From: Clostridia bacterium | Lineage (GTDB): Bacteria; Bacillota; Clostridia; Christensenellales; Aristaeellaceae | Reading direction: 5' to 3' | NCBI GenBank assembly: GCA_017433405.1 | Contig: JAFRHH010000024.1 | Coordinates: forward strand, 1-38,586 | Length of the DNA stretch: 38,586 nucleotides | Shown: in pieces, positions 1,636-33,300 of the stretch | Layout: each line of letters opens with the position of its first letter | Position numbering within the stretch: the first letter of the stretch is position 1 | Program-made: the position numbers and the translations under genes | Notes under the pieces: model-generated | Database searches by the model: none | What the model was told of the DNA's origin: nothing | What the model saw: only the letters and a program-made list of their open reading frames with translations

Positions 1636-1660
1636 GTGAACTGATGTTCACAGAGGAGGA
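1636..1660 (+). promoter_or_regulatory. Dyad-plus-Shine-Dalgarno element, copy 1
   Basis: GTGAAC (1636-1641), loop TGAT, GTTCAC (1646-1651), then GAGGAGGA (1653-1660) 7 nt before GTG 1668. The 6-bp stem is perfect. This is one of seven such elements in the window. It lies inside the VanY-NusG_II-Gx-ApbE operon with no recognisable promoter just upstream, which favours a role in the RNA. Confidence 0.7.
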
Positions 1661-1667
1661 AACGTCG

Positions 1668-2213
1668 GTGAATGAAAAAACGCTTCGGGTGACCCGCCTG
1701 GGGCTGATGATCGCGCTGATGGCGGTGCTGGGCTGGCTGGACCGGGCCATCCCGCTGGGGACGCTGCTGGGCGGCGGTCTGCCCGGCGTCCGGCTGGGGC
1801 TGGCCAATACGGTGCTGCTTTACGCGGTCTGGCTGATGGATCCGGGAAGCGCCCTGCTCCTGCTGGCGGCGAAGGTGCTGCTGAGCGGGTTTCTGTTCGG
1901 CTCCCTGTCGGCGATTCTCTACAGCCTGGCGGGGAGCGTGCTCAGCCTGGCGGCGATGACGGCGCTGCGGCGGGGCCCGGCAAAGGCCTGGCGGGTGATC
2001 CTGACCTCCGTGGCGGGGGCCATGGCGCATAATCTGGGCCAGGTGCTGGCGGCGGCCGCCGTAACGAGGACGCCGGGGCTTCTGACGGTTTATCTGCCGC
2101 CGCTGCTGGGCATCGGCGCAGCGGTGGGCATCCTGACGGGGACGGTGGCCTGGCGGGTGATCGACCTGCTGGGGGTGCGGAACGGAAAAGGCGGGGAAGT
2201 GGAAAAAGCATGA
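1668..2213 (+). CDS. Gx transporter family membrane protein (Hpre_diP_synt_I family)
   Basis: About 181 aa and very hydrophobic, with roughly five membrane helices. The pattern LGLMIALMAVLGWLDRAIP, then GGGLPGVRLGLANTVLLYAVWLMDPGSA, is typical of the Gx family, formerly labelled heptaprenyl diphosphate synthase component I. These proteins resemble ECF-type substrate-binding membrane subunits and sit next to NusG_II and ApbE genes, as here. The start is taken as GTG 1668 because GAGGAGGA ends 7 nt before it. The in-frame ATG at 1644 falls inside the upstream hairpin and has no ribosome site. It shares ATGA with apbE. The substrate is unknown; a role in flavin or quinone redox metabolism is inferred from context. 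Confidence 0.8.
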   Translation: MNEKTLRVTRLGLMIALMAVLGWLDRAIPLGTLLGGGLPGVRLGLANTVLLYAVWLMDPGSALLLLAAKVLLSGFLFGSLSAILYSLAGSVLSLAAMTALRRGPAKAWRVILTSVAGAMAHNLGQVLAAAAVTRTPGLLTVYLPPLLGIGAAVGILTGTVAWRVIDLLGVRNGKGGEVEKA

Positions 2214-3280
2214 AGAAACGGCTGACTGGGCTGCTGGGACTGCTGGCCTTGATGCTGGCACTTCTGAGCGCCTGCGGTGCCGGACAGCGGGAGACAGGGA
2301 ACCGGACGGCGGAGGCGGCTTCCGGAAACACGGATTCCGCGCGGAATGAGTCCCCGGGAACTGTCCCGGCGACGCGGCGGGAGTCGGTCGTCGGCTATCA
2401 GCTGGATACGGTGATCACGCTTTCCGGCTATTGCGATCGCTCCATACTGGAGGAGGGCCTGGCGGAATGCGCCCGGTATGAGCGGCTTCTCTCGAGAACC
2501 ATCGAAGGCAGCGACGTGTGGCGGATCAACCACGCGGAGGGGAAGCCGGTCGAGGTGGATCCGGTCACGGCGGAGGTGATCCGGACCGGGCTGGAGATCA
2601 GCGAAATCACGGAGGGCGCCTTCGATATTACCATCGGCCCAGCGGTGGTTCTCTGGAACTTCCGGGATCCGGACAGCCCCCTTCCTTCCGCGAAGGCGCT
2701 GGAGGAGGCGGCCGGGAGGATCAGCTGGCGAAGGGTGGAGCTGAACGGCAATACGGTCCGCCTGCCGGCGGGGATGATGATGGATCTGGGAGGGATCGCC
2801 AAAGGGTATATCGCGGACGCCGTCTGCGCCTTCCTGCGGGGGAAGGGCGTGGAAAGCGCCATTCTCTCCTTCGGCGGCAATATCATCACCATCGGCGGAA
2901 AACCGGACGGAAGCCCGTGGACTGTCGGCATCCAGGATATCGACCGGCCGACGGGGGACATCATGCTGGCGGTGGAAAGCCGGGACAGCTCCACGGTGAC
3001 CAGCGGCACCTACGAGCGATGCTTCGAGCGGGACGGCGTCCGGTATCATCATCTGCTGGATCCGGCGAGCGGCTGGCCGGTGCAGAACGGGCTGGCCTCG
3101 GTGACCATCCTGACATCCAGCTCCGCCCGGGCGGACGCCCTGTCCACGGCGGTCTTTATCCTGGGGGAGGAGAAGGGCCTGGCGCTGATCGACGCTCTGC
3201 AGAACACGGAGGCGGTCCTGATCCGCGAGGATCGGACGATCGTTCCCTCCGCCGGGGCGGGAAGCCTGATCCTGCGATAG
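2210..3280 (+). CDS. apbE: FAD:protein FMN transferase (ApbE), lipoprotein
   Basis: 356 aa. It has a lipoprotein signal with lipobox LLSAC (Cys ~22), so it should be anchored on the outer face of the membrane. Family landmarks are LDTVITLSGY near residue 65, MMDLGGIAKGYIADAV (flavin site), ILSFGGNI, STVTSGTYERCFE and HHLLDPASGWPV, then SSARADALSTAVFILG with the metal-binding Asp. The enzyme transfers FMN from FAD to Thr or Ser of exported flavoproteins, using Mg2+. No target FMN-binding protein is visible in this window. The gene begins at the ATGA overlapping the Gx transporter stop, so it is the last gene of the operon. Confidence 0.93.
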   Translation: MKKRLTGLLGLLALMLALLSACGAGQRETGNRTAEAASGNTDSARNESPGTVPATRRESVVGYQLDTVITLSGYCDRSILEEGLAECARYERLLSRTIEGSDVWRINHAEGKPVEVDPVTAEVIRTGLEISEITEGAFDITIGPAVVLWNFRDPDSPLPSAKALEEAAGRISWRRVELNGNTVRLPAGMMMDLGGIAKGYIADAVCAFLRGKGVESAILSFGGNIITIGGKPDGSPWTVGIQDIDRPTGDIMLAVESRDSSTVTSGTYERCFERDGVRYHHLLDPASGWPVQNGLASVTILTSSSARADALSTAVFILGEEKGLALIDALQNTEAVLIREDRTIVPSAGAGSLILR

Positions 3281-3369
3281 GGGCTTCATTTCCGGGCTGG
3301 AGACATGATCCCTCGGCAGCGGTATCATCCCGGAGACGCCGGGGATGGGGAAATCTTTTATTTGCACTG

Positions 3370-3399
3370 TAGACGGCATGGCGTGATCTGTGTTATACT
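3370..3399 (+). promoter_or_regulatory. Predicted sigma-A promoter for the 3457 gene
   Basis: TAGACG (3370-3375), an 18-bp spacer, and TATACT (3394-3399) preceded by TG at 3391-3392, an extended -10. It separates the downstream gene from the apbE operon. Confidence 0.6.
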
Positions 3400-3456
3400 G
3401 CTTTAGCGCATTCAAGCGCGGAGGATGGAAGAAGACGACTGAAGGAGGAAAAGAAC

Positions 3457-4170
3457 ATGAAGAAACTGGTATCTCTGATGTTGGCGCTCTGCCTGGCCTG
3501 CCTGATGGTTTCCGCCGTGGCGGAGGACTCCCTGGTGGGCACCTGGTACGCGCATACGGTGGAGTCGAACGGTCAGAAGATCGACGCGGCCGGCCTTGGC
3601 ATGAACGTGACGCTGACGCTGAACGAGGATAAGACCTTCACCATGGACGCCATGGGAACGGCCACCAACGGCACCTGGACCCAGGATGGCAACAGCCTGG
3701 CCCTGACGGCGCAGGAAACGACGATCAACGCGACCTACGCGGACGGGACGGTGACCATCCAGGATGGCGAGATGGCGATGCATCTGACCCGGGAACCCGT
3801 TGAAGCGCTGAAGATGGCGGACCCGAAGACCGACGCGACGGCGGAGGAATATGAAGGCACCTGGACGACGGCCTATGCCAGCGTGGGCGGCATGACCATC
3901 AACGCGGACGCCTCTCCGGATATGCTGGCGACGGTTGTGATCAAGGACGGCAAGATGACGATTACCGGCGAGGGAACCATGGGCAACCTGGCCGGCGGCG
4001 TGGAAATTCCGCTGAACTTTGAAAACGGAGCCATGAGCTATACCATGACCGCTGGCACTATGTCCGTGAGCTATAACCTGGCGATGCTGCAGGATGGCAT
4101 GCTGAGCCTGACCGCGACGGTGGGTGACAGTCTGTCGCTGATCATCTACTGCACCAAAGTGGTCGAGTAA
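3457..4170 (+). CDS. Secreted two-repeat beta-rich protein (lipocalin-like), function unknown
   Basis: 237 aa. It has a clear Sec signal peptide (MKKLVSLMLALCLACLMVSAVAED, cleavage near VA-ED). The mature protein has two related halves, LVGTWYAHTVESNGQ (from ~26) and YEGTWTTAYASVGG (from ~130). Each is followed by alternating short beta strands and Thr/Gly/Asp turns, with motifs such as LTLNEDKTFTM and VVIKDGKMTITGEG. This is the usual look of lipocalin-like GTW-domain secreted proteins of gut Clostridia. The ribosome site GAAGGAGG lies before the ATG. It has its own promoter and stands alone. Ligand and role cannot be read from the sequence. Confidence 0.75.
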   Translation: MKKLVSLMLALCLACLMVSAVAEDSLVGTWYAHTVESNGQKIDAAGLGMNVTLTLNEDKTFTMDAMGTATNGTWTQDGNSLALTAQETTINATYADGTVTIQDGEMAMHLTREPVEALKMADPKTDATAEEYEGTWTTAYASVGGMTINADASPDMLATVVIKDGKMTITGEGTMGNLAGGVEIPLNFENGAMSYTMTAGTMSVSYNLAMLQDGMLSLTATVGDSLSLIIYCTKVVE

Positions 4171-4241
4171 TAATAATTCCACATGCAGACAGACGGGCGC
4201 TTTTGCCCTGGAGACATTGATCAGGGCGTCGAAGGGTTCCG

Positions 4242-6926: not shown

Positions 6927-7052
6927 GCTGCTTCTTGCGCGCGCCCGGGGGATCACCTGGACAGGGGCGCGCTCCGCCTTTCCTGGTTGATTCCGGCGGG
7001 ACAGAACGGACATCCGGCCCGCGGATGATGGTGCCTGCCGCCTGTTTGCTTT

Positions 7053-7082
7053 ACTGTACCAGACGTGCGGTTGGTTTGTAAA
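7053..7082 (-). promoter_or_regulatory. Predicted promoter for the GH2 gene
   Basis: On the minus strand TTTACA (7082-7077), an 18-bp spacer, and TACAGT (7058-7053) with an upstream TG, an extended -10. The leader would be ~120 nt before ATG 6926, which rules out the longer start codons upstream of the promoter. Confidence 0.5.
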
Positions 7083-7118
7083 TGGCAAAACTTTTTTATT
7101 GAAACTTTCTTCCGGAGA

Positions 7119-7148
7119 TTGAAATCAGGGGGGGAAGTCAGATAAAAT
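7119..7148 (+). promoter_or_regulatory. Predicted sigma-A promoter for the 7208 operon
   Basis: TTGAAA (7119-7124), an 18-bp spacer, TAAAAT (7143-7148). It is divergent from the GH2 promoter and would drive the secreted protein, the FHA-ABC transporter and probably mscS. Confidence 0.6.
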
Positions 7149-7207
7149 AAAAAGTTGTAGAAAGGCAGCCGTGAAGGGATGCTCACGGCGGAGGGGAGGG
7201 GACCCGG

Positions 7208-8092
7208 ATGAAGGAAAAGGGAAACAGCGCCTTCCTCCGTCGGCTGATGTCAGCCGTCCTGGCGCTTGCGATGGCGCTCCCGGGGGCGCTGACGCTTCCG
7301 GCGGGAGCGGCCGCGGCGGAGGAAAACCGCCCGAGCAACGCGGATCTGGAGGAAACGGTCTTTTCCCGGGAGGATAAGGAATACGGCTCCCAGGCCAGCC
7401 TCATTGAAATCATGCGGGTGGTGCAGTCGGAGGAGTTTCAGGCCCTGATGGAGTTCGACGATGTGCGGGAAGTGATCGGCGAGGGGCTCGGAAAGGTGCT
7501 GGGCTGGCTGCGGGAAAACCGGGAGGTCACGATGAAGATCTTCCGGGAGCTGGGGTTTACGGACCCCGAAATCGTAATCATCGCCCGCATCTGGGATTAT
7601 GGGAAGGACATGGAGGCGGCCGGACGGGGGTATCTCGATTCCGAGGACGGGAGGCAGCTGGTCCGGGAGTGCGAAGCCCTGTGGGAAAGCGGCCTTCTGC
7701 AGCATTCGCTCCGGGATCTGGCCGAGCTGGGGAGCAGCCGTGATCTGGAGATCCTCCTGCAGGAATACGGCGACCGGATGGATATGGGCGCGGATTCATG
7801 GACGGAGGAAAACCGGGGGGAGCGGCACGGGCTGCTGGACTCCCTGGCAAAGCTGGTTGATCAGAGCGCCTGGATGCGGGAATCCCTGCCGAAGCTGACG
7901 GCGGACGAACGGTTCGGCACCGTGACGGAGCACCTGGGGCGGCTGATGCGGTCGGAGGAGCTGACCCCCTTCTGGGAGGCGGTTGAGCGGCTCCTGGATG
8001 ATTCGGAGGCGGTCCGTTTTCTCGCGAAGATGGGCTATGCCGCCATTTACGGAGCCTTCGGCATCGCGCCGAAAAGCCCGGTGGAGGACTGA
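7208..8092 (+). CDS. Secreted helical protein of unknown function
   Basis: 294 aa. It has a Sec signal peptide (residues ~1-37; hydrophobic core SAVLALAMALPGALTLPAGAAAA, cleavage near AAA-EE). The mature part is predicted mostly alpha-helical and acidic, with several amphipathic segments such as SLIEIMRVVQSEEFQALMEFDDVREVIGEG. No Cys, metal-binding or catalytic motif is obvious. A GGAGGGGAGGGG purine run precedes the ATG. It is first in an operon with the FHA-ABC transporter, so an exported partner of that transporter is a reasonable but unproven idea. I do not recognise the family. Confidence 0.7.
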   Translation: MKEKGNSAFLRRLMSAVLALAMALPGALTLPAGAAAAEENRPSNADLEETVFSREDKEYGSQASLIEIMRVVQSEEFQALMEFDDVREVIGEGLGKVLGWLRENREVTMKIFRELGFTDPEIVIIARIWDYGKDMEAAGRGYLDSEDGRQLVRECEALWESGLLQHSLRDLAELGSSRDLEILLQEYGDRMDMGADSWTEENRGERHGLLDSLAKLVDQSAWMRESLPKLTADERFGTVTEHLGRLMRSEELTPFWEAVERLLDDSEAVRFLAKMGYAAIYGAFGIAPKSPVED

Positions 8093-8120
8093 TTCTGGAC
8101 GAAGCCAGACAGGGGGCAAA

Positions 8121-8176
8121 ATCGTCATCCGGACAGAATGACAGACGTGAACTAACGTTCAAAGAGGAGAATAACC
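8121..8176 (+). promoter_or_regulatory. Dyad-plus-Shine-Dalgarno element, copy 2 (long form)
   Basis: The conserved upstream block ATCGTCATCCGGACAG (8121-8136) is followed by CAGAC, GTGAAC (8147-8152), loop TAAC, GTTCAA (8157-8162) and AGAGGAG before ATG 8177. The outermost base pair is lost (A instead of C), leaving 5 bp. The upstream block is shared with the copies at 18950 and 25080. Confidence 0.7.
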
Positions 8177-10729
8177 ATGAGCACAGCAGGAACAGCGTCG
8201 ATTCCGGCCCATCCGGCAGGACTTGTTTTCTTTGAGGGTCACGAAAAACCCCGGCAGTTTGTGATCTTCCAGTCCGCCATGATTCAGGGACAGCGGGAGA
8301 TGGAGGTCTTTACCACCTCCGCGCTGCAGCTGAGCTATCCCTTCCTGGATCCGGAGCAGGGGACGATCCGCTTCGAGTACGGGGAATGGCGGTATCAGAA
8401 TCTGAGCGAAAACACCTTTACCTTCGTCGGCGGAAAGGCCCTGGCGAAGGGGGAAACCGCGGTCCTCCGGGACAACACGGTGATCCGGATCTCCAACGAC
8501 CGGATGCTGACGGCGGTTTTTCTCAGCCGGTTCGCCGCCTCTACCGACTGGAAGATCATCAACATGGACGACGGCCGCCACGAGGTCCGGATCGAGACGG
8601 AAGTTGTCCGTGGTTCGCGCCTCCGGGACGCGGCCGCACAACCGTCATCCGGCCGGACCGGCGGACAGGAAGGGGCGTCCACGGAGGAAAACGCGGCGGG
8701 GGCCGGGGAAAATACCGCCCTGGCGCTGGAATACGAGGCCAGCCGCTGGTGGCTCCGGGAGGTCGGAGCCAGGGCCGTGACGCGGAACGGGGAGCCGGTG
8801 ACCGGGCGCTGCCCGCTGAACTTCGACGACTGCCTGGAGATCGGGGAGACCCGGTTCATCTTCGAGGGCTCCGGTCTGCTCTACGGATACAGAACCCTGA
8901 CGGGCGGCCTGTCCATCCGGATCGACGAGCGCTCCGTCCACAGCGCCCTGAAAAAGATCACCCTGCTGAAGGATATCAACCTGGAGGTGGAGCCGGGGAA
9001 CATGGTGCTGATCCTCGGGGGGTCCGGCGCCGGAAAGAGCACCTTTGTCAATGCCGTTACCGGGTACGAAAAGGCGAAGGCCACGATTACCGAAGGCGGC
9101 GTGGATTACTATAAGCAGTACGACCAGGTCAGGCACCGGGTGGGCTTCGTGCCCCAGGAGAACCTGCTGCGGGAGGAGGATACGGTGCTGATGACCCTCC
9201 GGAACGCCGCGGAGCTCCGGCTGCCCGCCGGCCTGCCGCGGGAGGAGATGGACCGGCGCATCCGGCTGGTGCTGGAAACCTTCGGCCTCACGGGGCTGGA
9301 GGAGGAGCAGGTGGCCAAGCTCTCCGGCGGCCAGAAAAAACGCCTCTCCATCTGTACGGAGTTCGTGGCCAGCCCCGCCCTGTTTATCCTGGATGAACCG
9401 GACTCCGGCCTCGATGGAATCATGGCGATGGAGCTGATGGAAAACCTGCGGCTGATCGCCTGCCAGGGGCATATCGTCATGGTGATCACCCATTCGCCGG
9501 ACCGGGTGGCCCATCTCTTTGACAAGGTCATCGTGCTGGCGAAGGGAACCCGGAACCGGGTTGGCCAGCTGGCCTTCTACGGCGGGATCCGGGAGGCCCG
9601 GGATTTCTTCGGAACGGATTCCCTCGAAAACGTCGTCAAGCGGATCAACGCCCGCAACGAGGGCGGGGAAGGCCGGGCGGATGAGTTTATTGAAAAATAC
9701 CGATCCTACGCCCGGGAGCGGGAGACCCGGGAGCAGGCGGTTTACCGGGAGACCGGGGGGGAGGAGGAACGGAGCCCCGTGGCGGTCGCCGAAACCGGGG
9801 AGGATCTCCGCTACAAGGGCCGGCTGGCCCAGATTCCGATCTTCCTCGGGAAGCATCTCCGGCTGTTTTTCAGCGAGGGCAACTGGAAGGTGCTGCCCCT
9901 GTCCGCCATCATCGCCTATCTGGTGGTCTACGTTATCGGCAAGCGGATGTTCATCAACATGGAGGGAACGGCCTACGCGGCCTTCGCCATTACCTGCGTC
10001 TGCCTGTGGAACGGGGTCTTCAATTCCGTCCAGTCGGTCTGCAAGGAGCGGAAGATTATCAAGCGGGAGCACCGGGCGGGGCTGCATATCTCCTCCTACC
10101 TGATCTCCCATATGATCTACCAGGCGGCCGTCTGCCTGATTCAGGTCCTGGTGACGGTGCTGATCTTCTGGGCCTTCCGGGTTCAGATGCCCTCCCCGGG
10201 CGCGGTGACGGGAATGTTCGTTATGGATCTGATCATCACCATGTTCCTGATCACCTATTCGGCGGACATGCTGGGGCTGATGATCTCCTGCATCGTTCAT
10301 ACGCCCATGGCCGCCATGACCGTCATGCCCTTCGTTCTGATCGTGCAGCTGGTCTTCGCCAATTTCGTCATCCCCCTCAACGCCGTCGGCCAGCAGATGT
10401 CGAACGGGACGATCAGCAAGTGGGGCATCCAGGCCATCAGCTCCGTGGCCAACTATAACAGCCAGGAATCCACGGTGATCCTGACGGCGCTCAATACCAT
10501 GAGCAACAAGGATCCGGAGTCCCTGGTCAGCAAGATACAGCGGGTGCTGACCATCGACGAGGTGCGCCATAAGGTCGGAGAGGTGACGGCGGCCAACCTG
10601 CAGAAGGCGGAATACGATTTTTCCCGGGAAAACGTGCTGAAAAACTGGGGGATGCTGGCGGGCTTCAGCCTTTTATACATCCTGATCGGCCTCCTGTTCC
10701 TGGAGCAGGTGGACCGGGACAGGCGATAG
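8177..10729 (+). CDS. FHA-FHA-ABCG-type ABC half transporter (Rv1747-like architecture)
   Basis: 850 aa. Two N-terminal FHA-like domains (~50-120 and ~175-245; the cores EWRYQNLSENTFTFVGGK and SRWWLREVGARAVTRNGE are FHA beta-strand patterns) precede an ABCG nucleotide-binding domain. That domain has Walker A GGSGAGKST (~281-289), signature LSGGQKKR, Walker B LFILDEP and H-loop VITHS. A charged linker (~500-545) leads to a six-helix ABC2 membrane domain (~560-845). This order matches mycobacterial Rv1747, a phospho-regulated exporter, and differs from plain ABCG proteins. The FHA domains lack an obvious full GR...SxxH phosphothreonine pocket, so phospho-binding is uncertain. No Ser/Thr kinase gene lies in the window. 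Export is inferred; the cargo is unknown. Confidence 0.85.
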   Translation: MSTAGTASIPAHPAGLVFFEGHEKPRQFVIFQSAMIQGQREMEVFTTSALQLSYPFLDPEQGTIRFEYGEWRYQNLSENTFTFVGGKALAKGETAVLRDNTVIRISNDRMLTAVFLSRFAASTDWKIINMDDGRHEVRIETEVVRGSRLRDAAAQPSSGRTGGQEGASTEENAAGAGENTALALEYEASRWWLREVGARAVTRNGEPVTGRCPLNFDDCLEIGETRFIFEGSGLLYGYRTLTGGLSIRIDERSVHSALKKITLLKDINLEVEPGNMVLILGGSGAGKSTFVNAVTGYEKAKATITEGGVDYYKQYDQVRHRVGFVPQENLLREEDTVLMTLRNAAELRLPAGLPREEMDRRIRLVLETFGLTGLEEEQVAKLSGGQKKRLSICTEFVASPALFILDEPDSGLDGIMAMELMENLRLIACQGHIVMVITHSPDRVAHLFDKVIVLAKGTRNRVGQLAFYGGIREARDFFGTDSLENVVKRINARNEGGEGRADEFIEKYRSYARERETREQAVYRETGGEEERSPVAVAETGEDLRYKGRLAQIPIFLGKHLRLFFSEGNWKVLPLSAIIAYLVVYVIGKRMFINMEGTAYAAFAITCVCLWNGVFNSVQSVCKERKIIKREHRAGLHISSYLISHMIYQAAVCLIQVLVTVLIFWAFRVQMPSPGAVTGMFVMDLIITMFLITYSADMLGLMISCIVHTPMAAMTVMPFVLIVQLVFANFVIPLNAVGQQMSNGTISKWGIQAISSVANYNSQESTVILTALNTMSNKDPESLVSKIQRVLTIDEVRHKVGEVTAANLQKAEYDFSRENVLKNWGMLAGFSLLYILIGLLFLEQVDRDRR

Positions 10730-12661: not shown

Positions 12662-13348
12662 TCAATACAGGAAATAGCGCCGCATGCTCTGGCGGAGGGA
12701 CGGAACCATGCCGGCGATCAGCAGGAAGATTCCCCCGAGGGCCAGCACGCCCAGGGAATAAAGGCTCCAGCGGAACATGCGGGCGCCGAAGGTGATGTGC
12801 TCAAAGAACTCGATCAGCACGGTCGCCCCGCCGAGCAGAAGCAGGAATCCGCCCAGAATATAGGGTTTCCCGCCCCGGACATATTTGAGCAGGAACAAAA
12901 GGGCGGTGACCAGCAGGCAGCTGATCCCGCAGAGGGGAAAGGCAAAGCTCAGGAACCAGTTTCCGCCGGTCTGAACGCAGATAAAGAGCAGGAACAGCGC
13001 GACGGCGACGTGATCCGCCGGCACCAGCAGCTCCGCCCGGGGGTGGGAGAACCAGAGGGGCAGAACCGCCACGACGTCAAACAGCAGAATGGCGCCGATG
13101 GCGTAGCCGCCCCATTTCAGCCAGCCGTAGAGGCGGAAGCAGATGATCAGGATGACGGCGATGCTCATGACGCTGATGACCGTCAGCGCGATGGCGAGGG
13201 CCCGGGAGGATTCCCGGTAATGGGGCGGCAGCTGATCCGGGTAGCTGGCTTCCCCGGCAACCTCCCCGGGATTCCAGACCGGCGTCCGGCACAGGGGGCA
13301 GCGCTCCGCGCCCTCCTGAAGCCGGACCCCGCATTGAACACAGTACAT
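12662..13348 (-). CDS. Zinc-ribbon membrane protein (DUF6320-like)
   Basis: 228 aa. The N-terminus has a zinc-ribbon with two CxxC pairs (YCVQCGV and RCPLCRTPV), followed by a short linker and six to seven hydrophobic helices (~50-220). I believe it is the DUF6320-type family that accompanies predicted alcohol acetyltransferases in Clostridia; this is from memory of gene neighbourhoods, not a search. Start ATG 13348 is set by AGAGGAGG 7 nt upstream, which belongs to dyad element copy 3. It sits between the acyltransferase and the esterase on the same strand. The biochemical role is unknown. Confidence 0.75.
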   Translation of the reverse strand: MYCVQCGVRLQEGAERCPLCRTPVWNPGEVAGEASYPDQLPPHYRESSRALAIALTVISVMSIAVILIICFRLYGWLKWGGYAIGAILLFDVVAVLPLWFSHPRAELLVPADHVAVALFLLFICVQTGGNWFLSFAFPLCGISCLLVTALLFLLKYVRGGKPYILGGFLLLLGGATVLIEFFEHITFGARMFRWSLYSLGVLALGGIFLLIAGMVPSLRQSMRRYFLY

Positions 13349-13352: not shown

Positions 13353-13379
13353 GAACCTCCTCTGTGAACGTCGGTTTAC
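13353..13379 (-). promoter_or_regulatory. Dyad-plus-Shine-Dalgarno element, copy 3
   Basis: On the minus strand GTAAAC, loop CGAC, GTTCAC (13379-13364), then AGAGGAGG (13362-13355) and ATG 13348. The stem has one A-C mismatch. It fills the whole gap between the acyltransferase stop (13386) and the next start, so it lies inside an operon. Confidence 0.65.
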
Positions 13380-14776: not shown

Positions 14777-14801
14777 GTGAACGGAGGTTCACAGAAGGAG
14801 G
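14777..14801 (+). promoter_or_regulatory. Dyad-plus-Shine-Dalgarno element, copy 4 (5' end of mRNA)
   Basis: GTGAAC (14777-14782), loop GGAG, GTTCAC (14787-14792), then AGAAGGAGG (14793-14801). The 6-bp stem is perfect. Because the TATAAT box ends at 14772, the hairpin would form the extreme 5' end of the transcript. This is the only copy with a promoter directly before it. Confidence 0.7.
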
Positions 14802-14803: not shown

Positions 14804-15856
14804 ATGAGCGTGCAGCAGGCCGACGGGACGAAACTGTTCTTCGCGTCCGATTATCAGGAGGGGGCCCATCCGGCCATCCTCCGGCGCCTTGTGGAAACCA
14901 ATCTGGAAAAAACCGCGGGGTACGGCTTCGACCCCTATACCGAATCCGCCCGGGCGAAAATCCGGGAAGCCTGCCAAAGTCCTGAGGCGGAGGTGTTCCT
15001 GCTGGTGGGGGGAACCCAGACCAACGCCACGGTGATCGACGCGCTTCTGTGCCCCTGGCAGGGGGCGGTGGCCGCGGAAACGGGGCATATCGCGGTTCAC
15101 GAGGCCGGGGCGATCGAGCTCGGCGGCCATAAGGTGCTGACGGTTCCCCAGACGGAGGGGAAGATGACGGCGGAGGCGCTGGAAAAGGCGTTTTCGGGAT
15201 ATTGGGCGGACGAAAACCGGGAGCATATGGTCATGCCCGGCCTGGTGTATCTTTCCCAGCCGACGGAATACGGGACACTGTATTCCCTGAAGGAGCTGGA
15301 GGGGATCCGCGCCCTCTGCGACCGCTACGATGCCGCCCTCTACGTGGACGGCGCCCGGCTGGCCTACGCCCTGGCGGCCTCGGAAAACGACGTGACCCTT
15401 GCGGATCTCGGGCGCCTTTGCGACGCCTTCTATATCGGGGGAACGAAGTGCGGGGCGCTGTTCGGGGAGGCGGTGGTCTTCCCGGGGCGGCGGAAGGCGC
15501 CGCATTTCTTTACGGTCGTCAAGCAGCACGGGGCACTGCTGGCCAAGGGGAGGATCGCGGGAATTCAGTTCGACACCCTGTTTACCGACGGCCTGTATGA
15601 GGCGGCGGGCAGAAACGCCGTCGAGGCCGCGAACCGGATTCGGGCCGCCCTGCGGGAAAGGGGGATTCCCCTGGCCCTTGAAACGCCGACGAACCAGATC
15701 TTTGTTTCCCTGGATGACGATCAGCTCCGCCGCCTGAGCGACCGGGTGGCGATGGATTATTGGGAAAGAACCCCGGAGGGCCGGACGGTGATGCGGATCG
15801 CCACCAGCTGGGCGACCGCGGAGGAGGACGTGGACCGGCTGATCGCCTGCCTGTAG
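14804..15856 (+). CDS. Low-specificity L-threonine aldolase (PLP-dependent)
   Basis: 350 aa. Fold-type I PLP enzyme of the threonine aldolase/beta-eliminating lyase family. It has GGTQTNATVIDALL near 70 (cofactor phosphate site), HIAVHEAGAIELGGHKV, YVDGARLAYAL (PLP-ring Asp and Arg) and the Schiff-base lysine in YIGGTKCGALFGE (Lys ~215). It splits L-threonine or allo-threonine into glycine and acetaldehyde in the cytoplasm. ATG 14804 is only ~2 nt after GGAGG; GTG 14810, 8 nt after it, may be the true start and loses only two residues. It is transcribed alone or with feoAB; a REP-like repeat lies between the two. Confidence 0.9.
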   Translation: MSVQQADGTKLFFASDYQEGAHPAILRRLVETNLEKTAGYGFDPYTESARAKIREACQSPEAEVFLLVGGTQTNATVIDALLCPWQGAVAAETGHIAVHEAGAIELGGHKVLTVPQTEGKMTAEALEKAFSGYWADENREHMVMPGLVYLSQPTEYGTLYSLKELEGIRALCDRYDAALYVDGARLAYALAASENDVTLADLGRLCDAFYIGGTKCGALFGEAVVFPGRRKAPHFFTVVKQHGALLAKGRIAGIQFDTLFTDGLYEAAGRNAVEAANRIRAALRERGIPLALETPTNQIFVSLDDDQLRRLSDRVAMDYWERTPEGRTVMRIATSWATAEEDVDRLIACL

Positions 15857-18949: not shown

Positions 18950-19004
18950 TCGCCTTTCCTCCGCGAACGCCGGTTCGCGTCTGCCATGCTGCGACGGATG
19001 ATGC
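18950..19004 (-). promoter_or_regulatory. Dyad element, copy 5, with compensatory base-pair change
   Basis: On the minus strand: conserved block GCATCATCCGTCGCAGCATG (19004-18985), then GCAGAC, GCGAAC, loop CGGC, GTTCGC (18978-18963), then GGAGG (18962-18958). Relative to other copies, T2 becomes C and the partner A becomes G, so the 6-bp stem stays perfect. In this copy no start codon follows GGAGG at the usual distance; the nearest in-frame GTG is ~21 nt away. Confidence 0.7.
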
Positions 19005-19067
19005 TTTTGCAGCCGCTTTCGCTGACGCGACCGCGGACAAAAGCTGTCTTCCCGAAGGGCTGTCCGC

Positions 19068-24954: not shown

Positions 24955-24988
24955 GGCCGGTCCTGCTACAGAGAAACTGAACGATCAA

Positions 24989-25031
24989 TCCCTGACCGGT
25001 TTTCGCCCCCGCGGCGGGAACCGGTCAGGGA
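24989..25031. other. Perfect 13-bp hairpin between SBP and permease genes
   Basis: TCCCTGACCGGTT (24989-25001) and AACCGGTCAGGGA (25019-25031) with a 17-nt loop. No U-tract follows on the plus strand, so it is a weak or no terminator. It likely stabilises the upstream mRNA, giving more SBP than permease, as is common in ABC importers. Confidence 0.75.
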
Positions 25032-25052
25032 AAATTCTGCTTTATCGGCGGA

Positions 25053-25078
25053 GCGCGGGAACTGTCCCCGCGTTCCGG
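25053..25078. repeat. Short REP-like palindrome (GGGAACTGTCCCC type)
   Basis: GCGCGGGAACTGTCCCCGCG then TTCC; a related unit lies at 30426-30450. It abuts dyad element copy 6. Confidence 0.55.
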
Positions 25079-25079
25079 A

Positions 25080-25127
25080 ATCGTCATCCGGACAGCATGG
25101 CAGACGTGAGCTGCTGTTCACAGAGGA
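25080..25127 (+). promoter_or_regulatory. Dyad-plus-Shine-Dalgarno element, copy 6 (long form)
   Basis: ATCGTCATCCGGACAGCATG (25080-25099), GCAGAC, GTGAGC (25106-25111), loop TGCT, GTTCAC (25116-25121), AGAGGAG, then GTG 25138. The stem has a G-T pair that is allowed in RNA (G-U) but is a mismatch in DNA. Confidence 0.7.
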
Positions 25128-25137
25128 GAACGTCAAC

Positions 25138-26133
25138 GTGTGGAAGTTTATTGTACGGCGGATCTTTCTGGCCGTCATCATCGTGATCCTGGGGTCCTTT
25201 ATTATCTACGGCGTGATGCGCGCCATGCCCACCAGCTTCGTGGAGTCGATGGCCCGGCAGCGGGCCGCCGCCAGCGCCACCACCGGCGGGCCGACCTATC
25301 AGGAGTGGCTGGAACAGCTCAATGAATCCTATCATATGAACACGGACATCCTCAGCGGCTTTTTCAGCTGGCTGGGCGGCGTCCTCCGGGGGGATTTCGG
25401 GGACAGCTGGAAATACGGCGTTCCCGTGACCCAGAAATTCGGGGAGGTCATCTGGCACTCCGTGATCCTGAACTGTATCACGCTGGTGCTCCAGGTGATC
25501 ATCTGTATTCCCCTCGGCATCCAGGCGGCCCGGCGCCAGTACAGCGGCTTCGATTACGGCATTACCGTCTTCGCCATGCTCTGTATCTCGCTGCCGACAT
25601 TCTTCCTGGCGACGCTTTTGAAATACGCCTTCGCCATCAAGCTGGGGTGGTTCGACCTCTACGGCCTGGTGGGGCGGTATCATGAGCAGCTGAGCCAGGG
25701 CGCCAAGATCCTGGATATTGCCCACCACATGTTCCTGCCGGTGCTGACGCTGGCGATGCTGAACATCGGCGGCCTGACCCGGTATACCCGGACGAACATG
25801 CTGGAGGTTCTGAACGCGGACTATATCCGAACCGCCCGGGCCAAGGGCCTGCCGGAGCGGACGGTGATCAACCGCCACGCCTTCCGCAACACCCTGATTC
25901 CCCTGGTCAGCTATATGAGCTATCTGATCCCGAGCCTCTTCTCCGGCTCCATGATCACCGAAACGCTGTACCAGATCCCGGGCATCGGTTACATATCCTA
26001 TGACGCGATGATCGCGGGCGACCTGCCCTTTACCATGTTTTATTCCATGTTCGGTCTGATCCTCACCCAGATCAGCCTGATGCTGGCCGATATCATGTAC
26101 GCCGTGGTGGATCCGCGGGTCCGTGTGAACTGA
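25138..26133 (+). CDS. oppB: Oligopeptide ABC transporter permease OppB
   Basis: 331 aa from GTG 25138, set by AGAGGAG upstream. Binding-protein-dependent transport permease with six helices. An N-terminal helix (FIVRRIFLAVIIVILGSFIIYGVMRAMP) opens the protein, and the EAA-type loop reads NADYIRTARAKGLPERTVINRHAFRNTLIPL (~222-252). The extracytoplasmic first loop is slightly long (QRAAASATTGGPTYQEWLEQLN). It pairs with OppC to form the channel. Confidence 0.92.
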   Translation: MWKFIVRRIFLAVIIVILGSFIIYGVMRAMPTSFVESMARQRAAASATTGGPTYQEWLEQLNESYHMNTDILSGFFSWLGGVLRGDFGDSWKYGVPVTQKFGEVIWHSVILNCITLVLQVIICIPLGIQAARRQYSGFDYGITVFAMLCISLPTFFLATLLKYAFAIKLGWFDLYGLVGRYHEQLSQGAKILDIAHHMFLPVLTLAMLNIGGLTRYTRTNMLEVLNADYIRTARAKGLPERTVINRHAFRNTLIPLVSYMSYLIPSLFSGSMITETLYQIPGIGYISYDAMIAGDLPFTMFYSMFGLILTQISLMLADIMYAVVDPRVRVN

Positions 26134-26143
26134 GGAGACTGAA

Positions 26144-27904: not shown

Positions 27905-27923
27905 GAACGGGAGGATAAAGAAG

Positions 27924-29075: not shown

Positions 29076-30082
29076 GCGAGACCAGCGCGAACGTCCTGGA
29101 GGTTCGCAACCTCTGCAAATATTTTCCGATTAAGGCTGGTCTCTTCAGCCATGTGGTGGGCCAAGTCCACGCGGTGGAGAACGTCTCCTTCACCCTGAAG
29201 CGGGGCACGACCATGGGCCTGGTGGGGGAGAGCGGCTGCGGCAAGACCACCATCGGCAAAACCCTCCTCAACCTGACCCCGAAGACCAGCGGCGAGGTGA
29301 TCTTCAACGGCAGCGTCCATCTGGACCAGCTTTCCGCCCGGGAGCTCCGGGCCTTCCGTCCGAAGATTCAGATTATCTTCCAGGATCCCTATGCCAGCCT
29401 GTCCCCCCGGCTGCCGGTCGGAGAGATTATCGGCGAGGCGGTCCGGGAGCACCATATCGTGCCCGACGGCGAGCTGAACGCCTATGTCTCCCGCATCATG
29501 AAGAGCTGCGGCCTCTTCGATTACCAGAAGGACCGCTATCCCCATGAGTTTTCCGGCGGCCAGCGCCAGCGGATCTGTATCGCCCGGGCCATCGCGCTGA
29601 ATCCGGACTTCATCGTCTGCGACGAGCCGGTGTCCGCCCTGGACGTGTCCATCCAGGCGCAGATTATCAACCTGCTGGAGGATCTCCAGAAGGAGTTCAA
29701 CCTGACCTACCTGTTTATCAGCCATGATCTGTCCGTCGTCCAGCACATCTCCGACACCGTGGGGGTCATGTATCTGGGAAACATGGTGGAGTACGCCGAT
29801 AAGAAGGAAATTTTCGCCCGGCCGCTCCATCCCTATACCCGGGCGCTCTTCAGCGCGATCCCGGTGCCGGATCCCACGGTGAAGATGAACCGGATCATCC
29901 TGGAGGGGAGCATTCCGTCCCCCGCCAATCCGCCCTCGGGCTGCAAGTTCCATACCCGGTGCCGGGAGTGCCGCGGCGTCTGCGCCCAGAAGGCTCCGAA
30001 GCCAGTCGACATGGGCGGCGGCCATACCGTGGCCTGCCATATGTACGATCCGGAGAGCGGCTATGCCCAGGAAAAGAACTGA
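29072..30082 (+). CDS. oppF: Oligopeptide ABC transporter ATPase OppF
   Basis: 336 aa. Walker [10 protein letters not shown] (~52-60), [18 protein letters not shown], signature FSGGQRQR, Walker [16 protein letters not shown] and H-loop ISHDL, then [12 protein letters not shown] and the C-terminal Cys cluster ([17 protein letters not shown]). It partners OppD. The start overlaps the oppD stop by 4 bp, implying coupled translation. Confidence 0.93.
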
Positions 30083-30389
30083 TCTTCCGAAGGGGGACGA
30101 TGGCCGGATCATCGCCGATATGAACGTGGAGGGCATGCCCTGGTATACGCCGGGAGCCCGGCCCCGGCGCGCCGGCGAAAAGAACGAAGAAGACCCGCCC
30201 CGGTATCCGCCTGGGGCGCAGCCCCGGCGCGGCGGCGACAGAGAAGGGCTCGCCGGGCCGGCCCTGAGCCGGGAGGAATCCCGCCTCTATACCTGGGGAG
30301 CCCTGAAGGCGGCCCTGCTGGTGGTCGGCGTCCTGTGCGCCGGCATCATCCTCTTCGTGCTCTTCTGTACGGAGATCTGGTTTCGGTAA
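30063..30389 (+). CDS. Small tail-anchored protein linked to the opp operon
   Basis: 108 aa, starting 20 bp inside the end of oppF. The N-terminus [27 protein letters not shown] looks like a conserved motif. It is followed by two imperfect Pro/Arg-rich repeats, WYTPGARPRRAGEKNEED and RYPPGAQPRRGGDREG. One C-terminal membrane helix (~82-104, ALKAALLVVGVLCAGIILFVLF) ends at the C-terminus, so the bulk should face the cytoplasm. The overlap and position suggest co-expression with the importer. I do not recognise a named family; the function is unknown. Confidence 0.7.
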   Translation: MPRKRTDLPKGDDGRIIADMNVEGMPWYTPGARPRRAGEKNEEDPPRYPPGAQPRRGGDREGLAGPALSREESRLYTWGALKAALLVVGVLCAGIILFVLFCTEIWFR

Positions 30390-30425
30390 AAATACTGCCC
30401 AACAATCTGAGCGCCCGGTAACCGG

Positions 30426-30464
30426 AACGTGGGAACTGTACCCCTGTTCCACGCGTGTGGAACA
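30426..30464. repeat. REP-like palindrome pair after the opp operon
   Basis: GTGGGAACTGTACCCCTGTTCC (similar to 25053-25078), then the perfect dyad TGTTCCAC-GCGT-GTGGAACA (30445-30464). No T-tract. It lies between convergent genes. Confidence 0.6.
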
Positions 30465-30485
30465 ACACACCCCGCGTTCATCACC

Positions 30486-31022
30486 TTATGTCCCGCGTTC
30501 CACGAGCGCTCTCTCGGCCTCCCGGAAAACCGCCGCGGCGGCGAAGGCGACGCCCCCAACCGCCAGCAGCATCAACAGCCCCGGCCATTCCGCCGCGGCG
30601 CTTCCCCCGGTCAGAAGAAAAACAGCATCCCCGATCACGGCCCCCAGGGAGCAGGCTCCGCAGCCAACCGCGGAGCGGAGCACCCGGCCGGGGCCGTTTT
30701 CCTTCTGCAGACGGGTCATTTTTTCCGGCGCCCGGAACAGCCCCCAGAGGCCAAGCGCCCAGTAGAAGCAGGGAAACAGGCTCAGCCCGGCGGGCAGGAA
30801 CACAAACAGCGCCCGGGTTCCGGGAAAGTCCAGCCGGAAATACGCAAGCAGCAGCGCCAGATAAAGCCCCCAGAGGATCAGCCCCCGGAGCGCCAGGCTT
30901 TTCCCGGAGGCGCCGCCCTCAAAGACGAACAGGGGTCCCCGGTATACGGGCACCCGCTTTTCCCGGCTGCCTTCGAACCGGGTTTCGTTGATCCAGTCTT
31001 CCTTATACTTTCGCTCTTTCAT
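30486..31022 (-). CDS. Small multi-pass membrane protein, unknown function
   Basis: 178 aa. A polar, charged N-terminus (MKERKYKEDWINETRFEGSREKR) is followed by about four hydrophobic helices (~43-62, 68-90, ~115-136, ~140-160). It ends in a charged tail. No catalytic motif. The ribosome site before ATG 31022 is weak (GGCGGGGTAAAC). It is convergent with the opp operon and divergent from the SpoIID-like gene. I do not recognise the family. Confidence 0.6.
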   Translation of the reverse strand: MKERKYKEDWINETRFEGSREKRVPVYRGPLFVFEGGASGKSLALRGLILWGLYLALLLAYFRLDFPGTRALFVFLPAGLSLFPCFYWALGLWGLFRAPEKMTRLQKENGPGRVLRSAVGCGACSLGAVIGDAVFLLTGGSAAAEWPGLLMLLAVGGVAFAAAAVFREAERALVERGT

Positions 31023-31075
31023 GGCTGCAGTTTACCCCGCCGGGAAAAGGCTGTCAATCCCCTTCCCCTTTTTCG

Positions 31076-31104
31076 TTGCGCGGAGGAGGCCAAAGAGGTA
31101 CAAT
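31076..31104 (+). promoter_or_regulatory. Predicted promoter for the SpoIID/LytB gene
   Basis: TTGCGC (31076-31081), a 17-bp spacer, TACAAT (31099-31104). The ~80-nt leader that follows is almost pure purine (31110-31165). Confidence 0.6.
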
Positions 31105-31190
31105 ACCGGAAGAAGGAACGAAGGAACGAAGAAAAGAAGAAAAGAAAAAAAGACGGAAAGACGATAGAAGGAAACGGAGGCGGTAAAGGA

Positions 31191-32927
31191 ATGCGAAGGA
31201 TCGGGCGAAGGACGTCGGAAAGGGCATGGCCGCGAAGGCTTGCGGCGGCGCTGACGGCGCTGGTCTGCCTTGCGACGCTTTCCCTGGCGGTGGCCGCGGC
31301 GGCGGCCTCCGGGCCGGAGGGGACGGAAACCCCGCTGCGGGTGCTTCTGCGGCGGCTGAACCTGTCCGACCGGGCGGAGCTGACGCTGCGGGGGCGATAC
31401 CTGGGGCGGGGAGAAAACGGCATGGAGGTGGTCTTTCCCCGGGACGGGCGGATGACCCTGATGCTGGAGGACGGGCGAATCCTGGTCCGCTACGAGGGGG
31501 CCTTTCTTTCCGCGGGCGCTTCCTTCACCCTGACGCGCCTAGAGGACGGGGGAGACGGCTCCGAACCCGAACCCGGCAGCACCTCCGAATCCGCTTCAGG
31601 CAGCGCCTCCGGGCTCTATATCGGCAGCGCGGGGCTGTATCCCGGGGACCTTCGGCTGACCGTTTCGGAGGGAAAGCTCCAGGCGGTTCTGACCCTGTCG
31701 ATGGAGGACTATCTGCTCGGCGTCGTGCCCTACGAGATGAGCGACAGCTTTCCCCTGGAGGCGCTGAAGGCCCAGGCGGTCTGCGCCCGGACCTACGCGA
31801 TGAACAAAATGAATCCCCAGCGGGAGTGGGACGTGGTGGACACCACCAACGACCAGGTCTTCCGCGGGGTTTCGGAGAATACGGTGAACGCTGCCCGGGC
31901 GGTGGCGGAGACCGCCGGCCTGCTGCTGACCCGGAACGGGCGCCTGGTGGAATGCTATTATTCCGCCTCCAACGGCGGCCAGACGGAGATCCCCGCCCAC
32001 GTCTGGGGCAGCGGGGAAACGGCGGGGAAATACGAGATCGCCGACGACCCCTGGGACGCGGGCAATCCCGACAGCCTGACCCGCTCGGCGACGCTGAAAA
32101 AGGATGGTACCGGGCTGTACCGCCGGATCACCGGCCTGATCCGGGAGGCGGTTTTTGCCAGGCCTGAATGGCAGAAGGGCGGCTTTTCAACCCAGGAATC
32201 GGACTTCCGGGTGGACGGGTTTTCCGCGATGGCCCTGAAGACGCCGCGGTTCGATTCCCCCAGCCGCCTGATGACGGAGCTGGAGATCACCCTGACAGCC
32301 TCCGGCCGAAAGGTGGCGGGAGGAACGCTGGGCGGCTTTGAATCCGCCGGAAGCCTGACCATTACCCTGCCGCTGTTTCCGGCGGTCAAGCATGCCCTGG
32401 GGCTGGCCATTAACGGCACGGATAACGAAATCTTCACCCTGACGGAAACGGAGGAGGCCTTCCGCCTGACGGCGGGCCGCTTCGGCCACGGGGTCGGCCT
32501 GAGCCAGCGGGGCGCCCAGTGGATGGCCCAGGAGGGTGGAAAGACCTTCGACGAGATTCTCGCCTTCTATTTTCCGGACAGCCAGATCATGAAATATGAG
32601 GCCCATCCGGCGCCGCTGCCGACGGTGCCGCCGGCTATGAACCGGACGCCGGCGCCGGAGGCCACCCCGGCGCCGAAGCCGACCCTGATGCCGGTTTCCG
32701 CCGAGGGACTGCCGGAGGGGGCGTATCTGGCTTCCGTGGAAAACATTCAGGACGGAACGACGCTGAATCTGCGGGCGGAACCCTCCCCGACGGCGGAGGT
32801 GCTGCGGACCCTGGCCAAGCATCAGCGGCTGATCGTGCTGGACGAGATGGACGTTCCCGGCTGGGCCCGGGTCCGAACGGACGTCATCGAGGGCTACGTG
32901 ATGCGGTCCTATCTGGAAAGAGAATAA
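31191..32927 (+). CDS. SpoIID/LytB-domain protein with C-terminal SH3 domain
   Basis: 578 aa from ATG 31191. N-terminal signal/anchor (~14-40). The SpoIID/LytB domain (~145-460) has LSMEDYLLGVVPYEMSDSFPLEALKAQAVCARTYAM, containing the catalytic-type Glu, and GHGVGLSQRGAQWMAQEGGKTFDEILAFYFPD near its end. A Pro/Ala-rich linker (~470-505) leads to a bacterial SH3 domain (SVENIQDGTTLNLRAEPSPTAEVL...GYVMRSYLE). SpoIID-type enzymes are peptidoglycan lytic transglycosylases acting on denuded glycan; the SH3 domain would hold it to the wall. The linker and SH3 domain suggest a cell-wall role rather than the canonical sporulation SpoIID. It has its own promoter and a REP-like dyad right after its stop. 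Confidence 0.88.
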   Translation: MRRIGRRTSERAWPRRLAAALTALVCLATLSLAVAAAAASGPEGTETPLRVLLRRLNLSDRAELTLRGRYLGRGENGMEVVFPRDGRMTLMLEDGRILVRYEGAFLSAGASFTLTRLEDGGDGSEPEPGSTSESASGSASGLYIGSAGLYPGDLRLTVSEGKLQAVLTLSMEDYLLGVVPYEMSDSFPLEALKAQAVCARTYAMNKMNPQREWDVVDTTNDQVFRGVSENTVNAARAVAETAGLLLTRNGRLVECYYSASNGGQTEIPAHVWGSGETAGKYEIADDPWDAGNPDSLTRSATLKKDGTGLYRRITGLIREAVFARPEWQKGGFSTQESDFRVDGFSAMALKTPRFDSPSRLMTELEITLTASGRKVAGGTLGGFESAGSLTITLPLFPAVKHALGLAINGTDNEIFTLTETEEAFRLTAGRFGHGVGLSQRGAQWMAQEGGKTFDEILAFYFPDSQIMKYEAHPAPLPTVPPAMNRTPAPEATPAPKPTLMPVSAEGLPEGAYLASVENIQDGTTLNLRAEPSPTAEVLRTLAKHQRLIVLDEMDVPGWARVRTDVIEGYVMRSYLERE

Positions 32928-32928
32928 T

Positions 32929-32956
32929 GGGACGGGGGGACGGTTCCTCCGTCCCA
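32929..32956. repeat. REP-like hairpin fragment, copy 5
   Basis: TGGGACGGGGGGACGG, loop, TTCCTCCGTCCCA: about 11 bp of stem starting at the SpoIID-gene stop. It shares GGGGGGACGGTTC with the other copies but lacks their GACAGAAGAACTG arm. Confidence 0.6.
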
Positions 32957-33055
32957 TGGAACGGGGGCTGGCGCGGGATCCTGTGATGGCCACGGTGGGG
33001 GAGCGGGCCTTTCCGCGGCCATCCGGTCAGGTTCGGAAAAAGACCAGAACGGATA

Positions 33056-33084
33056 TTGCGTTTCTCCGCTTTCTCGTCTACAAT
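33056..33084 (+). promoter_or_regulatory. Predicted promoter for the small protein/copA operon
   Basis: TTGCGT (33056-33061), a 17-bp spacer, TACAAT (33079-33084). No clear CopY (TACANNTGTA) operator is seen around it. Confidence 0.6.
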
Positions 33085-33123
33085 CTATTGCGGTTTTGAT
33101 TAATTCGGAGAGGTGACTGCTTC

Positions 33124-33261
33124 ATGGATGAGGAGACGAAAGAAACGCAGGAATCATGGGAAGAATCCCATCCCTGGCTCTCGAAGATGACGCGGCAGGA
33201 TGAGAATGATTCCGTGGACGAAGTGATCCGGTATACGCTGGATGAACTGAGGCTGGCGTGA
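33124..33261 (+). CDS. 45-residue acidic small protein upstream of copA
   Basis: 45 aa: MDEETKETQESWEESHPWLS, then a helical half ending VDEVIRYTLDELRLA. GGAGAGG lies ~10 nt before the ATG and a promoter ~40 bp upstream. It has two Trp, one His and no Cys, so it is not a CopZ-type metallochaperone. The 43-bp gap to copA holds dyad element copy 7. I do not recognise the family. It may be a real small protein or a leader peptide that affects copA translation. Confidence 0.6.
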   Translation: MDEETKETQESWEESHPWLSKMTRQDENDSVDEVIRYTLDELRLA

Positions 33262-33275
33262 GGGGGGGATCACCC

Positions 33276-33300
33276 GTGAATTACCGTTCACCAGGGAGAA
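33276..33300 (+). promoter_or_regulatory. Dyad-plus-Shine-Dalgarno element, copy 7
   Basis: GTGAAT (33276-33281), loop TACC, GTTCAC (33286-33291), then CAGGGAGAAGG and ATG 33305. The innermost pair is T-G, tolerated in RNA as U-G. It sits inside the predicted small protein-copA-tcdA transcript. Confidence 0.65.

Follow-up and report, generated by a model that had tools for sequence, protein, structure and literature searches.

The repeated dyad in the window

The stretch of DNA analyzed here, called the window, comprises 38,586 nucleotides (nt) of contig JAFRHH010000024.1 from an uncultured gut Clostridia bacterium, whose genome (G000) is a 92-contig assembly of 2.53 Mb that is 89% complete. 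The subject of the analysis is the dyad GTGAAC-N4-GTTCAC, which is followed by a Shine–Dalgarno (SD) sequence of the AGAGGAG type, and which an earlier note on this DNA had described in front of seven unrelated genes. All seven sites were found again with an AGAGGAG-type motif behind the dyad, together with a weaker eighth copy at 7171 on the plus strand. With up to two mismatches the window holds eight matches to the dyad, while 0.83 would be expected, and none of 100 shuffled sequences reached eight. The dyad and its SD are thus real, but they are part of a longer unit than the note had described, namely a dispersed element of about 90 nt. A covariance model of this long element, R1, was used for the genome searches. 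The features of the window are as follows.

1543–1658, plus strand: long-model match around the dyad at 1636, 34 bits
1636–1651, plus strand: dyad GTGAACTGATGTTCAC, right-end hairpin of a 5′-shortened copy, with SD AGAGGAG at 1652–1658
1668, plus strand: in-frame GTG start behind the dyad at 1636, Gx transporter-like gene (PF07456)
7171–7186, plus strand: weak eighth copy with four of six pairs, GGCGGAGGGGAGG behind it and ATG at 7208
8083–8169, plus strand: 5′-shortened element, 58 bits to R1, with dyad at 8147–8162, SD at 8163–8169 and ATG at 8177 (ABC transporter)
13357–13379, minus strand: dyad GTAAACCGACGTTCAC with SD AGAGGAG and ATG at 13348; of the rest of the element, GAC alone precedes the dyad
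14777–14801, plus strand: exact dyad with SD AGAAGGAGG and in-frame ATG at 14804 (PF01212, aldolase-like); no more than 4 nt of the element precede the dyad
18956–19052, minus strand: full-length element, 93 bits, with left flank GGAAG, hairpin 1, dyad at 18963–18978 and right end GGAGGAA, upstream of a Nudix gene
25043–25128, plus strand: 5′-shortened element, 47.6 bits, with dyad at 25106–25121, SD at 25122–25128 and GTG at 25138 (oppB-like)
33276–33298, plus strand: dyad GTGAATTACCGTTCAC with SD CAGGGAG and ATG at 33305 (copA-like)

At 13364, 14777 and 33276 only the dyad and the SD of the element are kept. The description of the sites as a consensus dyad or a close variant holds with some qualification: the dyad is exact only at 1636 and 14777, and at 18963 it reads GCGAAC-N4-GTTCGC, with both arms changed and still paired. 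At 18963, moreover, the Nudix start does not directly follow the motif; a second SD-like sequence, AGAGGTGG, lies downstream. The loop is 4 nt long, as had been stated, but it is not freely variable, given that TGCC occurs in 49 and TGAC in 34 of 196 copies in the genome. Another type of palindrome, GGAAC..GGGGAC.GTCCCC..GTTCC, lies at about 25055–25080 of the window, directly 5′ of a shortened dyad copy, and is also found directly upstream of the G000 dyads at C79:3439, C27:22038 and C8:4074. The Rfam match to gut-2 RNA (RF02990) at 38156–38204 on the minus strand (40.4 bits, with a gathering score of 39.8) is unrelated to the dyad.

The alignment of copies showed that the dyad is the right end of a unit that can be written (A)GGAG/ACAG-hairpin 1-CATCCGGACAGAATGGCAGAC-GTGAAC-N4-GTTCAC-AGAGGAG, with a slash here and below at the element junction. 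In the first loci aligned the unit read GGAG/ACAGATTTTGTCCGC-loop-GCGGCTACAAAATCGTCATCCGGACAGAATGGCAGAC-GTGAACNNNNGTTCAC-AGAGGAG, the dyad being hairpin 2. Hairpin 1 (GAC-GATTTTG-CCGC ... GCGG-CAAAATC-GTC) is separated from hairpin 2 by a conserved spacer, and carries CGTC at its 3′ foot, where some copies of genomes G047, G056 and G043 have AGTC. The element has no terminal inverted repeats, as the left ACAGATTTTG and the right CACAGAGGAG are not inverted repeats of each other. When the two full copies were folded, the left-hand GGA paired with TCC immediately 3′ of hairpin 1.

The search of the whole genome, which the earlier note had proposed, gave 132 exact dyads in G000 and none for the reversed control. 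The dyad followed by AGAGGAG, with at most one mismatch, was found in 166 copies (control, 0), and a single copy in one genome was found among 40 other genomes. R1 gave at least 149 matches in G000, 72 on the plus and 77 on the minus strand; this number is a lower bound because 150 candidates were scored, and the R1 copy numbers of other genomes are likewise lower bounds. When up to two mismatches were allowed and an SD-like motif was required within 14 nt, 196 copies were counted in 514,270 distinct bases of G000, including 116 within the 149 R1 matches and 80 outside them. The sequence to the left of the element was read in 83 non-tandem copies, with 46 of the 149 unparsed and 20 tandem-like ones set apart. 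Its last four bases are G in 60, G in 71, A in 76 and G in 81 of these copies, and the fifth is a purine in 60, while the bases beyond this [AG]GGAG show little preference. At the right end, at least six of the seven letters of AGAGGAG are present in 130 of the 149 copies. These data suggest that the element is probably a non-autonomous, dispersed palindromic unit of about 90 bp and of the mobile type, with the dyad and the SD as its right end.

The high copy number of the element is a feature of a narrow lineage. Among 45 genomes of the genus, R1 matches were found only in G000 and four others, with at least 9, 6, 2 and 1 matches in the latter under strict filters and at least 11, 8, 3 and 1 at E≤0.1, and 40 of the 45 gave no match under the strict filters among the candidates scored. 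A weak scan of 200 genomes of the order, covering about 21 candidates of each, gave a match only in G000. Exact searches gave no match of one 29-mer in named genomes, and none of one pattern in viral contigs. Among named genomes the closest relatives are assemblies of uncultured Clostridia, and where a source is given it is the gut of goat, sheep, roe deer or horse. One locus is common to G000 and G009 together with its element copies, at 92%–94% DNA identity (L113, L184), with four other matches at 65%–84%; the high identity could reflect either recent exchange or strong conservation. That the repeats are an artefact of assembly or binning in this metagenome-assembled genome is hardly credible: contigs C41 and C79 do end in a copy, but other copies lie in ordinary operons with orthologs, related copies occur in the four other genomes, and the locus common to G009 contains them too.

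Copies at ribosome-binding sites and within genes

To place the copies relative to genes we used crude open reading frame calls, made with no gene finder. In 114 of 192 copies a start codon that opens a frame of 60 codons or more lies 3–15 nt behind the SD, most often at 9 nt, while control positions 300 or 600 nt downstream gave 42 each and the opposite side gave 27. The earlier note had made its claim depend on enrichment upstream of start codons, and this enrichment was borne out, as 78 of 147 full copies had such a start compared with 692 of 3114 background [AG]GGAG motifs (p = 2.6e-15). Despite this enrichment there are also copies within genes, with no start behind the SD. When the 149 R1 copies were classified, 77 were at a start, 23 within a frame open in either direction, 7 before another copy, and 42 in none of these positions.

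Two loci at which relatives lack the element give a closer view of its placement. At the ktrB–ktrA junction (gene names assigned by eye), G007 reads GGATAA-C-AGGAG/GTTGCGATTC-ATG, where G000 reads GGATAA...GATGAG/element-AAAGGAG/GAAGCGATTC-ATG, and no element was found within 50 nt before the start in 27 relatives (28 of 30 loci were parsed). At the gene for an ATPase-domain protein in a hydrogenase-type operon (also named by eye), G008 has TAAGCG-AGAGGAG/AGGGATCAGC-GTG, as does one named assembly, while G000 has TAAGCATTTG-AAGGAG/element ending GGAGGAA/AGGGAAGAGGC-ATG. At both loci the stretch from the SD to the start is kept and the element sits in the SD, with no target duplication apparent. 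At a third locus, compared between G000 and G017, the agreement is less exact. One of the two explanations offered in the note was a small mobile module bringing along a ribosome site of its own, and this one gains support from the lineage-specific multiplication, the plain SDs at the two orthologous sites, and the copies that lie in frame within genes.

In these in-gene copies the frame ETDFVRERVSEAATKSSSGQNGRRELTFTEE is open, and each encodes about 30 residues. Among the 196 copies, those with at least 60 open codons before and at least 30 after them number 28 in this frame, and 11 and 2 in the others; some of the 28 represent spurious frames, and the bias is in part a trivial one, as both other frames contain a TGA within the dyad. 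Five of the proteins were compared with Pfam, which identified an HI0933-type flavoprotein, FtsK with two copies, MutL, and a group-1 glycosyltransferase with a shortened copy, and gave no family for the fifth. Both copies in FtsK lie in its linker (L104, G000 C3:3570–4009), and the MutL linker contains a partly decayed in-frame copy (L173 514–626, on G000 contig C79). The flavoprotein is the one locus compared with relatives, and here the insertion is in frame and its peptide is absent from all 15 aligned relatives, in an alignment of 16 rows from which 8 of 24 loci without a long frame were left out. In a preceding alignment, with minus-strand loci unturned, G044 and G059 had unrelated extra residues in the same loop; neither is in the 16-row alignment. 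The seven in-gene copies inspected all keep at least six of the seven letters of AGAGGAG, which indicates that this motif is part of the element and not of the downstream gene.

The other explanation of the earlier note was an RNA hairpin controlling translation or the stability of the mRNA. As a cis-acting leader shared by a regulon-like set of genes, the dyad would fold in the 5′ untranslated region and tune ribosome access or mRNA decay, in agreement with its location at SD distance before starts in 114 of the 192 copies. The paired positions also covary, as the note had suggested checking: in 148 distinct G000 copies, 14 of 22 pairs showed two-sided changes, with a score of 0.097 compared with 0.069 after shuffling, and in 22 copies from the four relatives the score was 0.197 compared with 0.094, the alignments for these scores and for the pair counts below having been fitted to the model. 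Hence, the palindromes appear to be of importance to spreading copies. An mRNA hairpin should, however, favor G·U pairs, and the equal numbers of G·T and A·C mismatches count against such a function. In G000 there are 38 of each in 857 dyad cells, and 62 and 61 in 2295 cells of hairpin 1; in the relatives the G·T and A·C numbers are 12 and 12 for hairpin 1, and 3 and 7 for the dyad. Copies with and without a start behind them do not differ in dyad pairing (5.04 and 5.19 of 6 pairs; p = 0.56), but they do in the SD (6.65 and 6.07 of 7 letters; p = 5e-5; 145 of 149 copies in both comparisons). The SD is thus better preserved at starts whereas the dyad is not, which suggests that the ribosome site is in use and that, in copies that are transcribed, the hairpin shows no visible selection. 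Besides, the orthologous genes examined in relatives are without the dyad, copies also lie within genes, three of four RNA folds do not predict the dyad as the hairpin, and the Rfam scan of the window gave no match at the dyads. Neither retention at orthologous genes nor a pairing constraint of the RNA strand, which would mark a regulatory RNA leader or riboswitch, was found, and we regard the leader explanation as improbable.

Two other pairings were considered and rejected. For an alternative hairpin, GGCAG/CTGCC, the two partners were not associated (25 of 88 and 8 of 39; p = 0.39), though two of the four folds prefer that type. Kissing between the hairpin-1 loop and the dyad loop was counted in 17 of 98 copies (51 of 149 unparsed), compared with a shuffled mean of 11.4, and 75 of 2000 shuffles were at least as high, which is a weak signal that relatedness among the copies could also produce.

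The dyad could also be a DNA operator that binds a dimeric regulator in the duplex, its fusion to the SD being incidental. The palindrome is symmetric, its mismatches are without strand bias, and a duplex site would be expected to covary just as well. Against this, the dyad belongs to a 90-nt element with a second hairpin, the SD motif is part of the element even within genes, and the spread is lineage-specific with copies in frame; an operator is therefore very unlikely.

Predicted mobilization of the element

Subterminal hairpins with a short motif at both ends are typical of single-strand elements that HUH/Y1 enzymes process, as known from the work on IS200/IS605. The element lacks inverted termini, carries two subterminal hairpins, and has one short motif both in its left flank and as its right end. 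A single-strand HUH/Y1 mechanism of the IS200/IS605 kind, or of the kind by which REP-associated tyrosine transposases (RAYTs) move REP sequences, is therefore predicted. Insertion would take place directly 3′ of a GGAG-type sequence, in most cases an SD, and as the element ends in the same motif, the gene would be given a replacement SD some 9 nt before its start and stay expressed, which is what could allow the element to settle in ribosome-binding sites. The hairpins would act in mobilization and not as regulators of mRNA. Taken as a whole, this would be an SD-homing element, with a transposase of the RAYT kind recognizing an SD-like GGAG that the right end restores, and with the same process threading 30-residue inserts through proteins. 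We put this scheme forward tentatively, as one that falls somewhat short of an even chance.

The G000 genome contains a candidate for such an enzyme. One Y1 protein was found, of 247 amino acids, encoded on the minus strand of contig C5; it scored 58.5 bits with the NCBIfam RAYT model, below the cut-off of 80, and 41 bits with Pfam Y1_Tnp, above 23. An element copy lies about 150 nt upstream of this RAYT-like gene, and the downstream part of the locus showed none. The copy and the gene are separated by short tandem repeats of the GAACTTCCTTAACGAACT type (L009 1368–1440), and next to the RAYT-like gene, at L009 1834–2760 on the plus strand, is another gene that by eye resembles the Rpn/PD-(D/E)XK putative transposase family. 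At 25 Y1-gene loci of relatives, two of which are the same G009 gene, R1 gave no match at E≤5. The flanks of 11 RAYT loci, including that of G000, contain a hairpin of at least 7 bp in all but G000, and in four of them (G003, G009, G017 and G047) it begins with GGAGACA. Palindromes of the form GGAGACAG-N-CTGTCTCC were found in 27 of the 45 genomes, with 36 in G047, none in G000, and at most one for the reversed control, and, judged from coordinates and among the matches listed, some are no more than about 450 nt away from a Y1 match in G001, G002, G009 and G010. The GGAG tag thus goes with some RAYTs of the genus, and hairpin 1 itself looks related to these palindromes. It is plausible, although by a small measure not the expected outcome, that the RAYT-like protein of G000 mobilizes the element. 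This second dispersed palindrome, GGAGACAGGGGACGGTTCTCTGTCTCC with its variants, carries a GGAG tag, gave the 36 pattern matches in G047 and none in G000, and lies near RAYT genes in several cases, for example in G001, G002, G009, G010, G017 and G047; judged from its sequence, it looks like a GGAG-tagged REP family of Clostridia.

Some copies of the element occur in tandem with a period of 90–91 nt, and some of these have common loops and mutations. Two places in contig C32, 1101–1215 and 1685–1797 (L108), each have a solo dyad and behind it a full element whose loop is identical; at the first, the odd letters are the same as well. Judged from these pairs, tandem units may duplicate or convert each other. 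A tandem pair of dyad and SD with a period of 60 nt and a different spacer lies at C36:13883–13965 (L195). Shortened copies are also common, and one short form, GGAG/ACAGAATGGCAGAC-dyad, would fit the loss of hairpin 1 between its flanking GACAGA repeats. The element could have been dispersed by host processes such as ectopic recombination, gene conversion and tandem duplication, without a transposase and in the manner of the Rickettsia palindromic elements (RPEs), for which we know of no vehicle either. The tandem units and the varied breaks of the 5′-shortened copies agree with this, but the placement at an SD with the right flank preserved at two loci, and the GGAG-tagged palindromes near RAYT genes of sister species, do not follow from it; on balance, dispersal by host processes is unlikely, if less so than either the leader or the operator.

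Several points weigh against a transposase-driven, mobile-type element. No movement has been observed, and cleavage at the right-end GGAG is a predicted step. Only two empty sites were read closely, with downstream proteins 64% (G007) and 85% (G008) identical to those of G000, and as one end is imperfect at each G000 site (the left end, GATGAG, at the first and the right end, GGAGGAA, at the second), either locus taken singly could also reflect loss in the relatives. The ATPase gene is without any spacer, with the genes overlapping, in 17 of 23 relatives compared. About half of the copies sit away from starts, with 42 of 149 unclassified. The copy beside the RAYT-like gene is one-sided, a single case, and could be due to chance; many RAYT-bearing relatives have no element, and G056, which is 77% complete, has elements and no Y1 match. 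Finally, of the 80 dyad–SD copies outside R1 matches, 78 retain fewer than 40 nt 5′ of the dyad, and their breaks vary, which precise transposition does not predict.

If the proposed mechanism holds, the ribosome-binding site, which is among the most sensitive places of a gene, becomes a safe target by means of the same signal at the end of the element. This would explain how one short repeat comes to stand in front of dozens of unrelated genes, and it would warn against reading such a repeat as a regulon. It would also provide a natural set of replaced ribosome-binding sites, in which changes of the leader could be tested against expression.

Comparison with known elements

The earlier note knew of no described element of this form, and our literature searches likewise turned up none in which an SD is both target and end. 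The element is like miniature inverted-repeat transposable elements of the terminal-inverted-repeat type in being short, non-autonomous and dispersed, but it differs from them in lacking terminal inverted repeats, and neither of the two empty sites shows an apparent duplication of the target. With miniatures derived from IS200/IS605 (see PMC6006769) it has in common the subterminal hairpins at both ends, the lack of inverted termini, and a fixed 5′ motif that is echoed at the right end. The GGAG left flank and the AGAGGAG right end seen in G000, with no target duplication apparent at the two empty sites, agree with the way such miniatures insert, each of these sites having one imperfect end. 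On the other hand, no parental element with the same ends was found, and the only Y1 protein found in G000 is the RAYT-like one, with an element on one side.

The likeness to the REP–RAYT systems, as presented in PMC3733652, includes the high copy number in a narrow lineage, the tag beside a palindromic hairpin, the intergenic and some intragenic copies, and a RAYT-like gene in the genome, with an element copy seen on its upstream side only. In contrast, a REP is a single palindrome of 20–40 bp with the tag GTAG or GTGG 5′ of its hairpin (PMC3733652), while the element described here is about 90 nt long, with two unlike hairpins, the tag [AG]GGAG, and an SD as its right end. GTAG repeats are placed in Proteobacteria, Cyanobacteria, Chloroflexi and PVC (PMC3733652), and the words Firmicutes and Clostridi are absent from the text of that paper that was searched.

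The RPEs (PMC3733652, PMC10969869) resemble the element in their in-frame insertion into unrelated protein genes, conserved peptide, palindromic structure, and lack of a proven vehicle, and RPE-4 and RPE-6 correspond to CGTC-tagged repeats (PMC3733652). They differ in belonging to another phylum, and the element has in addition the GGAG left tag, the SD, and about half of its full copies at ribosome-binding sites. If the proposed origin is right, the RPE-like in-frame insertion, as seen in FtsK and MutL, would extend to gut Clostridia and be linked to a GGAG tag found near RAYTs of the same genus.

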